Assembly (NCBI GenBank): GCA_007618135.1 | Contig: PHFX01000007.1 | Location: 1 to 64,000 of the forward strand | DNA length: 64,000 nucleotides | From: Candidatus Brocadia sp. WS118 | Lineage (GTDB): Bacteria; Planctomycetota; Brocadiia; Brocadiales; Brocadiaceae | Reading direction: 5' to 3' | In this document: in pieces, positions 4,909-53,063 of the stretch | Layout of the letters: every line of letters begins with the position of its first letter | Position numbering within the stretch: the first letter of the stretch is position 1 | The notes under the pieces: model-generated | Seen by the model: the letters and a program-made list of their open reading frames with translations, nothing else | Databases searched by the model: none | Told to the model about the DNA's origin: nothing | Position numbers and translations under genes: made by a program

Positions 4909-6390
4909 TTAATTTGTCGTTATACCTTCAATAAATCCCTCTAATTTTCTGCTACGCAACGGATGCTGGAGCTTGCGAATGGCTACACTTTCAATCTGGC
5001 GTATTCGCTCTCTCGTTATGTTAAACCGCTCTCCAATTTCCTCCAGGGTATGAGTATATCCATCGCCAATTCCGAAACGCAATTTAATAACCTCGCGTTC
5101 TCTGTAGCTCAAGGTATCAAGAACCTTTTCTAACTGATCTTTAAGCAACGTTTGGTGGGCATTCGTAACTGGCGATTCAGTCTTCTTGTCCTGGATAAAA
5201 TCCTCAAACATCGTCTCACCACCTTCACCAATCGGACTCTCCAGCGATATCGGCTGCGATGCAATCCGAAATACCCGGTATACCTCAGAGACAGGGATCT
5301 TTGCCTCTTTTGCAATAGCTTCAATCTTTGGCTTTCTTTCAAGGCCTCCCTGAGATGCTTTTAATACCATGTTGGTCTTATTGATCACATCGGTCATATG
5401 TACGGGAATACGCACGGTCCTTGCCTTATCATCGATTGCCCGGATAATTGCCTGTTTAATCCACCAGGTAGCATACGTGCTGAATTTGAAACCCATACGG
5501 TAATCATATTTATCAACAGCCCGCATGAGACCGGTATTCCCTTCTTGTATAAGGTCGTGAAATACCAGTCCACGTTTTCTGTACCTTTTCGCGATACTCA
5601 CCACCAACCTCAAATTGCCTTCAGAAAATTGATTCCTGGCAGATTCATACTCATTATTAATGAATTTGATTGCGTAAATAGCTTTTTCCGCTTCGCGGAT
5701 ATTTTTCATGAATAAGAGTTTTATATCGTAAGCACGGTACGAACATTTCCCAAGAATTTCGTTTTTATAAAACGATCTTTTGGAATTTTCCTTAAAAGAA
5801 ACAATCTTCTCTAAAATATCCAATAAATCTCTCATTACCGGCAGTATTGTTTCTGCACGAACGTGCACTGCCTCTAACTCTCTAACCGCAGATCTCTTCC
5901 TCGCAGCTATCTTTTTCAGAATTCTGATCTTCAAATTTTTAGAGGCGGATTGCTTGTTTATCTTTTCATAATCTCTCAGATTCTTTTCCAGGATTTCTTT
6001 AATTTTTTTTGCTACACCATGGATTTGTTCAACCATTTCATTTTTGCTTTGGTCTCTTGTTGCTGACGTTTCGACAAATTGAACAAGGTCTGATTCACTG
6101 GCCAACTGCTCAAGAATGCGCGCATACCTTTCCAACCCATAATCAAACCTCAAGACCCTCCGGTGGAGTAATCGGCTCATTATTTTTACCTTCTTTGCAA
6201 GATGGAGCTCTTCTTCACGAGACAACAAGGGTAATTTTGCCATCTCTTTTAAGTAAAGCCGGACCGGGTCGTAGTCTTTATATTTTATATGATCTTTAAG
6301 CACTTCCACTTCGTTCAAATCATCTTCGGTAGCATAATTTTCATAGTTTTCGTCAATTAAGTGATCAATTTTATATTCAAATGCACCCAT
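4909..6390 (-). CDS. rpoD: RNA polymerase sigma factor RpoD (sigma-70, group 1 type)
   Basis: Directs core RNA polymerase to -35/-10 promoters. Region 1.2 is at about 40-65 ([21 protein letters not shown]). A long charged non-conserved region fills about 100-235. Region 2 follows near 250-320 with [20 protein letters not shown] and WWIKQAI, the RARTVR-like segment is [11 protein letters not shown], and region 4.2 has [15 protein letters not shown] near 450. Region 1.1 is essentially missing, since the protein begins only 40 residues before region 1.2, as in several Planctomycetota sigma factors. The gene ends at a strong terminator and is divergent from the Fur-family gene, with 319 AT-rich bases between. 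Promoters elsewhere in the window (TTGACA / TATAAT) fit recognition by such a factor. Confidence 0.95.
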
Positions 6391-33256: not shown

Positions 33257-33299
33257 AGCCTTACTGCAAAGATTTCCCAACATCTTCGGCAGTAAGGCT
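33257..33299 (-). promoter_or_regulatory. Leader hairpin with T-run before the caspase-CsgG gene (attenuator candidate)
   Basis: AGCCTTACTGC pairs with GCAGTAAGGCT over 11 bp, with an inner AAGAT/ATCTT stem. On the minus strand it is followed by TTTTATTTTT and then AAAGGATG before the start codon. Position within the leader suggests termination/antitermination, though it could end a transcript from further upstream. Confidence 0.5.
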
Positions 33300-33315
33300 A
33301 TCTTCAACTAAACTG

Positions 33316-33337
33316 TTAAACCGTTTAAACGGTTTAA
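33316..33337. promoter_or_regulatory. Perfect 22-base palindrome, operator candidate
   Basis: TTAAACCGTTT followed directly by AAACGGTTTAA, 85 bases upstream of the caspase-CsgG start. A GTTTAAAC core is repeated at its edge. The AAACCGTTT-type half site recalls LacI-family operators, but no such regulator is seen nearby. Confidence 0.5.
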
Positions 33338-33584
33338 ACCGCTTATAAAGATCCTTTACTTTGCGCCCCCTGATCACTCAGGGTTTACCTTTATCGTGAT
33401 GTACTCATATATTACATGTGAGTTTTCTTGTTAAAAGATGAGCAATACAAATGCCAGAAACAGGAAAACGAAGGATGTTAACAATATATTTGCCATAAAC
33501 AATTTTATGATTTATGATTATAATTATTTAAGGAAAGATACGAACAGGATGGGATTAGTAAATTCAATATAGAAAAAGTGTATC

Positions 33585-40575: not shown

Positions 40576-41229
40576 TCAATCCTTTACAAAGGATACTTTC
40601 TTTGCCCAGATACTGTGAGCATAATCTTTCTTGATTTTTCTCCACGCCTGTAATAATGCATCTACCTTGTGGGTGCTCTTGTATTCTGAAACGCCATACC
40701 AATATTGCGCTTCCGGGGCAATATCACTCCTGGGATACCGATCAACCGTCAATTTCAGCAGTACGCTGGCAGCCTTGTAATCCTGCCTTTCCAGCGCCAT
40801 AAAACCTAACCCAAAGTGTAATTGCGCCAGGAATTCGTCGGGAGGCAAAAACCCATTGAACCGGTAATATTCGGTGCCCAGGGAATCCAGGACAAGAAGG
40901 GTGGGTGTCCAAAATACCCGGTATTTCCCGGGAAGATCAGAGCCGCTCTGCACATTGATTTGTAAAGGGATGAAATTTTTATTGATGAAGTCTATTACTG
41001 CTGCGTCAGGGTACGTCACGGTACCCAGGGTTTTGCAGCCTGTTCAGGTAGGCACAAAGAAGTCCAGCAAGATATTCTTATGCTCGGCCTTTGCTTTTGC
41101 GACGGCCTCGTCAAGGCTTTTTTCCCAGGTAATGGCTGGCGGGGCACCTTTGGTGTCAGCGGCAAGGGTTACCGAAAGGGATACTGCTATGAGGGTAAGA
41201 CAGCTTACAGCGTACCGTAACATGACCAT
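40576..41229 (-). CDS. Exported thioredoxin-like selenoprotein (UxxC) with TPR tail
   Basis: The frame runs from ATG 41229 to 40576 with a single in-frame TGA at 41044-41046, which I read as selenocysteine (residue 62). Around it is LLDFFVPT-U-TGCKTLG, exactly where thioredoxins carry W-C-x-x-C-K, so the active site is U-x-x-C. Downstream are the cis-Pro strand VFWTPTLLVLD and TPR-like helices (ALERQDYKAASVLLKLTVDR). A signal peptide (LTLIAVSLSVTLAA) sends it to the periplasm. A 6-bp hairpin starts 17 bases after UGA. The window also encodes a Sec-containing SelD. Standard callers split this into a 61-residue and a 147-residue piece. A nonsense mutation is the alternative. Confidence 0.8.
41009..41026 (-). 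promoter_or_regulatory. Candidate bacterial SECIS hairpin
   Basis: On the minus strand GGGTAC-CGTGAC-GTACCC forms a 6-bp stem with a 6-nt loop. The stem begins 17 bases and the loop 23 bases after the UGA at 41046-41044. Bacterial SECIS loops usually lie roughly 16-37 bases past UGA inside the coding region, and G/U in the loop is typical; both fit. Confidence 0.55.
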
Positions 41230-41540
41230 CCTCCTTTTCTTGAAAAGTCGCAGGATAGATAAAATTACCTATAAAATCTATATCACAATATTTTTTTTGA
41301 GTCAATAAAAATATGTATGCGTTATGAAAATGGTATGTCCGGAATTGGGCTTATTTTCACCTTTATTATCTGACTACTCGGTTTTTTACCTCTTTGACTT
41401 CGTTTTTGAGGTAAAGCCGTTTCTCTATCAATGCTTTCACGATACATTTCTACCTTTTGATGGTTTTTTTGAGTTTATGCGTAGGCTCTATAGACAACGA
41501 AGGATCATGATTTGAAGGATAATTCGATATGAAAAGATTC
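41230..41540. other. Gene-free stretch
   Basis: About 310 bases between the selenoprotein start and the end of the flagellar-rod-like gene. A rightward frame at 41324-41515 exists but is rich in Phe/Tyr/Leu without a ribosome binding site, and I do not accept it. The minus-strand RBS AGGAGG for the selenoprotein gene is at about 41230-41236. Nothing else seen. Confidence 0.4.
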
Positions 41541-45356: not shown

Positions 45357-46412
45357 ATGCCTGTGTTGTTGGGAAAGAAACGACTGATTGATTATGCCGC
45401 CTGCGGTGGGTGAGCAGGCAAGATCCCCGTCGAAGACATGGCGTATGTGGTTAAACATTTACCCGATTATCCGAATGAACGGCTGTTGGTTGGCCCAAAG
45501 ACTTTTGCCGATGCCGGTGTTTATAAGATTAACGATGAAATGGCGCTGGTGGAGACCCTGGATTTTTTTACGCCGGTCGTAAATAATCCATATGATTACG
45601 GCCAGATAGCCGCTGCCAACGCCTTGAGTGACGTCTATGCTATGGGTGGCAAACCCCTCACGGCCATGAATATCCTCTGCTATCCTTTAAAATCTCTGGA
45701 TAAAGACATTTTGGTGGAGATACTCAAAGGAGGCGCTGATAAGGTCAATGAGGCAGGCGCAACCGTTGTTGGTGGTCACACCCTGCAGGATAATGAGATT
45801 AAATACGGGTTGTCGGTTACCGGCATTATTCACCCTGACAAGATTGTGACGAATTCGGGTGCCAGACCAGGCGATGCACTCGTATTGACCAAACCGCTTG
45901 GCACAGGGTTGATTATCTCCGCTATCAAGGCCAACAAGGTTTTTGAGGGAGACGAACATCTTGTTACGAGAAGTATGTGCCAGTTAAACAAAACAGCCTC
46001 AGAAACGATGCTGGAAGTGGGCGTCAGTTCCTGTACGGATATCACGGGATTTGGCCTCATGGGTCACGCATATGAGATGGCAGAGGCCAGCAAGGTGACA
46101 CTGTCTTTCTTTGCGGAACGCATACCCATATTTGAAGATTGTGAACGCTATGTCAGGATGGGATTGATACCGGGGGTATCAAAACTCAGTAAGAAATATT
46201 TGAAGGATGCCATTACGATAGACTCCAAAGTGCGGGAAGAGTTGGTTGACGTCTTATTCGATGCGCAGACATCAGGAGGTCTGCTTATCTCGCTTCCGGG
46301 AGAAAAAGCGGAAATACTCTGTACAAAACTCAGGGAGAGGGATGTTGTGATGGCGAGTATCATTGGCGAAGTATGTGAGAGGAGGGACATTTCTATCGTT
46401 GTTACACCATGA
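45357..46412 (+). CDS. selD: Selenide, water dikinase SelD, itself a selenoprotein
   Basis: Makes selenophosphate from selenide and ATP for Sec-tRNA synthesis. ATG 45357 opens MPVLLGKKRLIDYAACGG, then an in-frame TGA (45411-45413) read as Sec19, then AGKIPVEDMAYVV. SelD proteins carry the catalytic Cys/Sec and Lys exactly here (Lys22). The body has ALVETLDFFTPVVNNPYDYG, ANALSDVYAMGGKP, GADKVNEAGATVVGGHT and SSCTDITGFGLMGHA. A short stem (GTC-GAA-GAC, 45429-45437) lies 15-24 bases after the UGA and may act as SECIS. Without readthrough a start at 45438 would remove the active site. 351 residues total. Confidence 0.93.
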
Positions 46413-52914: not shown

Positions 52915-52932
52915 TTTTTCAAACTTGTTTGT

Positions 52933-53053
52933 CTTATCGAGAGTGGCAGAGGGACTGGCCCTGCGAAGCCACAGCAACCGGTCTTGTCCAGTTAACTGAA
53001 TGGGCGAGATGCTGGTGCTAATTCCTGTCTCGTGTTTTTTGGGAAAAGATAAG
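52933..53053 (+). ncRNA. SAM-I (S-box) riboswitch
   Basis: The core motifs of the S-box aptamer are present in order: CTTATC-GAGAGTGGCAGAGGGA, CTGGCCCTGCGAAGCC, CAGCAACCGG, and GGTGCTAATTCC before the closing P1 strand GATAAG (53048-53053), which pairs with CTTATC (52933-52938). It senses S-adenosylmethionine and turns off methionine-related genes. The downstream gene is annotated as threonine-synthase-like, which makes the presence of an S-box informative about its pathway. Confidence 0.95.
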
Positions 53054-53063
53054 ATAGGTGCAT

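Follow-up and report, generated by a model that had tools for sequence, protein, structure and literature searches.

What protein is encoded by a thioredoxin-like reading frame of Candidatus Brocadia sp. WS118 that is interrupted by a TGA codon, and is that codon read as selenocysteine (Sec)? The window (the whole stretch of 64,000 nucleotides that was analysed) contains such a frame on the reverse strand, from 41223 to 40576, and the TGA at 41046-41044 is its sole interruption. We concluded that this is a working selenoprotein gene whose product is a probably exported thioredoxin-fold oxidoreductase, most likely with a reductive role, and we give this joint reading a probability of about 0.9. 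Judged by comparison with homologues, insertion of selenocysteine at codon 60 is nearly certain. A first-pass annotation of the window had described the Sec site, an export signal and a C-terminal tail, and the features that we found, with the export signal judged by eye, agree with that description (Table 1).

Table 1. Positions of the Sec thioredoxin-like gene, its features and selD in the window
Feature	Position	Strand	Basis and remarks
Sec-containing, probably exported thioredoxin-like CDS, complete	40576..41223	-	215 residues; ATG 41223; stop TGA 40578-40576; read-through translation
Shine-Dalgarno-like AAGGAGG	41230..41236	-	Sequence
Putative Sec-type signal peptide (MLRYAVSCLTLIAVSLSVTLA|A), ~residues 1-21	41161..41223	-	By eye
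Thioredoxin-fold domain, residues 30-135	40819..41136	-	Pfam PF13098, PF13899, PF00085; AlphaFold; Foldseek
Selenocysteine 60 codon, in-frame TGA, of U60-T-G-C63	41044..41046	-	TGA/TGC in homologues
Resolving Cys63 (TGC)	41035..41037	-	Invariant in alignment A2 (close relatives)
SECIS-like hairpin, bacterial	41009..41026	-	Folding, covariation, synonymous constraint, loss in Cys homologues
cis-Pro-loop proline P107 (W-T-P)	40903..40905	-	Invariant in alignment A2 (close relatives)
C-terminal helical tail, YbgF/TPR-like, residues 136-215	40579..40818	-	Weak TIGR02795, YfiO, TPR_6; model helices
selD (selenide, water dikinase)	45357..46412	+	TIGR00476, 369 bits; own in-frame TGA 45411-45413 (CGGUAGKI)

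The sequences on both sides of the TGA belong to one protein-coding frame, as had been proposed from the sequence. With the TGA read as Cys, the translation matched both Thioredoxin_2 and Thioredoxin_7 above the cut-offs, and the TGA fell at the first Cys of a CxxC motif, aligned with the first CxxC Cys of PDB 2kuc. The best supported start is ATG 41223: AAGGAGG lies 6 nt upstream, and homologues begin with MLR, MIR or MLK at this position. Sec is therefore residue 60, and the number 62 given in the first-pass annotation, which was counted from ATG 41229, needs to be corrected. No promoter-like site was found upstream of the gene. A mechanical list of open reading frames restarts this frame at 41019, past the in-frame TGA, and ordinary gene calling loses or shortens the gene.

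The encoded protein has a thioredoxin fold followed by a helical tail. In a Pfam profile search with the read-through protein, Thioredoxin_2 (PF13098) scored 43.7 bits against a gathering cut-off of 27, and Thioredoxin_7 (PF13899) and Thioredoxin (PF00085) were also above their cut-offs. The active-site motif is UTGC in this protein and U..C across homologues. Cys63 and P107 did not vary among close relatives, and P107 corresponds to the cis-Pro of the thioredoxin fold. An AlphaFold model (mean pLDDT of 86.4) showed a thioredoxin fold to which a helical tail is attached, and the best solved relatives found with Foldseek were DsbH, 2kuc, DsbD C-terminal domains and YbbN. The tail had a sub-threshold match to the NCBIfam model TIGR02795 (7.5e-9) and weak matches to Pfam YfiO and TPR_6.

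The product is probably exported, which we infer from the putative signal peptide. By eye, this peptide has one Arg, a hydrophobic core and small residues at the cleavage site; the N-terminal helix has low confidence in the AlphaFold model, and a hydrophobic N-terminus is retained in the exported homologues. Distant members from Planctomycetota mostly have no signal peptide, which suggests that export may be derived in Brocadiales.

The proposal that the protein represents a new selenoprotein family held in part. No NCBIfam model claims or names the protein, but its domain and UxxC motif are those of a known kind of selenoprotein. The selenoproteins called 'thiol:disulfide interchange protein' combine PF13098 with UxxC (representative WP_011366075.1; Table 1 of PMC13188914), and thioredoxin-fold selenoproteins with PF13098 and UxxC are found in passages of three inventories (PMC13188914, PMC9312934 and PMC2398784), including the 'Trx-like 2' (cd02953) UxxC selenoproteins of the GOS survey (PMC2398784). 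The window protein fits under this umbrella, with the same domain above the cut-off and the same UxxC. Compared by domain and motif, it differs in having a TPR/YbgF-like tail and in occurring almost only with Sec (62/64 homologues, described below). The passages of these inventories describe no Trx-TPR architecture and no Planctomycetota family, and 'TPR' and 'Planctomyc' have 0 occurrences in the main texts of the three papers. Selenoprotein candidates from three planctomycete genomes are also listed in the supplement of a 2016 study (PMC4807772).

The protein is also distinct from other modelled or solved thioredoxin-like proteins. Its thioredoxin domain made partial matches, far below the cut-offs, to the NCBIfam models TsoB (NF045694; 53 bits versus a cut-off of 805), VPGUxxT (NF041383 and NF041382; 36 versus 275 bits and 22 versus 350 bits) and Trx7/PDZ (NF041199; 18 bits versus a cut-off of 300), all of which have other Sec motifs or another architecture. 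The C-terminal domain of DsbD (PDB 2fwe, 1vrs) and 2kuc share its fold, its CxxC-type site and export, at 24-32% identity in the fold search, but have Cys in place of Sec and lack the tail. DsbD itself is a membrane protein, and a DsbD-like protein is encoded in the same genome (G000:C69, L087).

Three lines of the gene are present in Brocadiaceae. On the tree, these are a probably exported UTGC line, a UxSC line and a cytosolic UIGC line, and the TGA is retained in all of them. The UxSC form is often in tandem with the UTGC form (L025, L026, L031), but in Jettenia-like genomes it lies at a separate site. The cytosolic UIGC paralogue of the same genome as the window (L070; G000:C229:34515-35084) adjoins an isochorismatase-like gene, and pirin-like and FMN-reductase-like genes are near this paralogue in two relatives (L123 and L073; families assigned by eye). 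The conserved neighbours of the window gene (LOG, SdhB-like, FtsY and NusB) are convergent to it and point to no partner. Elsewhere in the window there are two riboswitches above the Rfam gathering score, a SAM riboswitch (52931-53055, forward strand) and a c-di-GMP-I-GGC riboswitch (33284-33398, reverse strand).

The role of the protein is most likely reductive, because the solved structures closest to it are C-terminal domains of DsbD and small disulfide oxidoreductases that are exported. Outside the cytosol, the protein would act as a thiol:selenol-disulfide oxidoreductase in which Sec60 attacks and Cys63 resolves the selenenyl-sulfide, most likely as a reductant for disulfides or selenenyl-sulfides in the periplasm or the anammoxosome lumen. 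We infer the direction of electron flow, the partner and the client: electrons would be supplied by a DsbD-type membrane reductase, and the TPR-like tail probably binds the client or partner.

We weighed two other roles. It is possible, but rather unlikely, that the protein is an exported 'chaperedoxin' like CnoX/YbbN, in which the tail would hold unfolded proteins and the UxxC site would protect or repair thiols under oxidative or nitrosative stress. CnoX/YbbN (PDB 3qou) likewise has a thioredoxin fold and then TPR-like helices, YbbN structures (3qou and 3qdn) were among the Foldseek matches, and the isochorismatase-like, pirin-like and FMN-reductase-like genes beside the UIGC paralogue (again by eye) would suit redox stress. 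However, the thioredoxin part alone fits; over the whole chain the match to YbbN is poor (rmsd of 11.6, TM of 0.37, 14% identity), and YbbN is cytosolic with a much longer tail, whereas the tail here is short and YbgF-like. It also seems improbable that the protein acts on exported proteins as a DsbA/DsbC-like oxidase or disulfide isomerase rather than as a reductase. Exported thioredoxin-fold proteins do carry out oxidation and isomerization as well as reduction, and DsbA- and DsbG-like selenoproteins with UxxC are known (PMC13188914), but in sequence and structure the window protein matched thioredoxins and the C-terminal domains of DsbD, and not DsbA or DsbC.

The TGA at codon 60 was conserved in nearly all homologues and replaced by Cys in the others. 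We collected homologues by scanning 84,980 species genomes with a pattern and by searching whole genomes (199 in a phylum sample and 75 in a class sample), and obtained 64 distinct full-length sequences from Planctomycetota, the window's own counted in. Codon 60 was TGA in 62 of the 64 and TGC (Cys) in 2; an unrelated residue, which the first-pass annotation had named as evidence against Sec, did not occur. The 62 TGA homologues have ~25-93% identity and come from independent assemblies; the closest were from Brocadiaceae records, one of them 93% identical in Candidatus Brocadia carolinensis. Conservation of the same TGA and the same downstream hairpin across Planctomycetota relatives indicates that the gene is real, and comparison likewise shows the Sec decoding, the domain fold, the SECIS element and the paralogues. 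A genuine stop or a sequencing error, leaving a broken gene or one that ends after 59 residues, is very improbable and was rejected, as was a pseudogene: gene callers would halt at the TGA (the list of frames resumes at 41019) and the real stop is also TGA, but the same TGA is followed by conserved protein in 62 homologues, the SECIS region is constrained, and Cys takes the place of Sec where selA was not found. Outside Planctomycetota, one pattern scan found only generic Cys thioredoxins in Bacteroidota, and no relative was found on viral contigs.

The TGA form occurred together with selA. In the phylum sample, selA was present in 28/28 genomes with the full-length TGA form versus 108/171 others; in the class sample it was present in 29/32 genomes with the TGA form (two with partial selA) versus 11/43 others. 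The three class genomes with the TGA form and no detected selA (G205, G208 and G215) are all draft assemblies, and we assume a gap. Three genomes of genus g2 (G088, G195 and G220; same family) have neither selA nor the thioredoxin-like gene. Both Cys homologues (L112 and L113) belong to family f82, which lies within the same order, and selA was found in 0/17 genomes of that family. In two Brocadia-type cases, only the C-terminal tail of the gene is left: at L034 (~4960-5294; matches G215), where the thioredoxin half and the Sec codon are gone, and in G211 (L114; G211:C1:790298-790573), which retains selA and a cytosolic TGA paralogue.

The hairpin downstream of the TGA resembles a bacterial SECIS element. 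The sequence GGGUAC-CGUGAC-GUACCC, 18-35 nt past the UGA, can form a 6-bp stem, and the loop CGUGAC (41020-41015) begins 23 nt past the UGA and has G at its second position. A small apical loop with a G, in a hairpin just downstream of the UGA, is a feature of the bacterial SECIS consensus (in the part of PMC1088965 consulted), and the window hairpin has these features. The first-pass annotation had pointed to a hairpin at SECIS distance (41026-41009); it is present, but taken alone it is no better than chance. Its single-sequence folding energy was unremarkable (z = -0.22), and a loose scan, in which 22% of all the window's TGAs had some SECIS-like hairpin, gave no significance either. The significance of the hairpin comes only from comparison, not from the single sequence.

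Comparison indicated that the stem is conserved. Among 53 distinct sequences, 96.5% of hairpin cells were paired versus 17-55% with the partner strand slid, the covariation score was reached by 0/500 shuffles, and 3 of the 6 pairs were altered on both sides. At the third pair, 32 sequences have A-U, 16 have G-C and 2 have G-U, and this pair couples the second base of a Gly/Asp codon (+7) to the wobble base of a Tyr codon (+11). Of the 51 sequences that have G or A at the first of these places and C or T at the second, 48 showed agreement between the two bases (Fisher p of 3e-10, uncorrected for kinship). On the tree, the two sides of this pair changed 6-7 times each (~6 switches), and a kinship-corrected sign test on independent pairs had ~2 agreeing, 0 opposing and 1 neutral branches, too few for significance. 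Among 13 orthologues, synonymous differences were zero at codons +7 to +10, versus a gene mean of 0.45, and these codons are the stretch of the gene least variable by synonymous change. Both Cys homologues are without the hairpin (-2.0 and -1.5 kcal/mol). Five divergent TGA forms (L106, L107, L109, L048 and L063) deviate from the common stem and could have another fold or hairpin.

The genome encodes the selenium machinery. We found selA (580 bits), selB (378 bits, summed over its parts) and a tRNA-Sec (anticodon tca), that is, all of the selA, selB and selC genes whose absence the first-pass annotation had named as evidence against a selenoprotein. The selD gene is ~4 kb from the thioredoxin-like gene, as that annotation had noted, and is itself a selenoprotein gene that is complete only if its in-frame TGA is read through; its stop codon is also TGA. 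The mechanical list places the start of selD too far downstream (45438), so that the active site is missing. A search of the genome with Rfam SECIS_1 had no match, but was uninformative because none of the control genomes matched either. In several Brocadiaceae genomes (G070, G049, G153, G106 and others), the selA match was split in two within a single open frame, with additional residues in between; SelA there likely has an insertion after roughly position 50 of the model. Reading of UGA as Trp or another residue through a changed code or a suppressor is hardly credible, and Trp was rejected: the frame would be open under any such code, but tRNA-Sec (tca), selA and selB are present, TGA is still used as the stop of both the thioredoxin-like gene and selD, and where relatives have lost Sec they have Cys rather than Trp.

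By analogy with Sec decoding in other bacteria, we propose that SelB, loaded with Sec-tRNA(UCA), would bind the hairpin, which follows the UGA after 17 nt, and place Sec at codon 60, and that translation would then run on to codon 215.

A broader reading is tentative, and we regard it as possible but doubtful. The gene may belong to a Planctomycetota-centred Trx-TPR selenoprotein family that nearly always has Sec and that split in anammox bacteria into UTGC and UxSC lines, mostly exported, and a cytosolic UIGC line; in this reading the exported lines would depend on Sec and function as reductases or redox chaperones serving the cytochrome-rich anammoxosome or the periplasm. The family contains a natural experiment, in which relatives without detectable selA have Cys and drop the hairpin. 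There seems to be little description of how anammox bacteria use selenium: the few papers found that mention selenoproteins or selenocysteine alongside Brocadia, Kuenenia or anammox do not, judged by titles and abstracts, appear to concern it. With this gene, an exported selenium enzyme can be tested in organisms important for nitrogen removal, and selenium supply could affect anammox bacteria.
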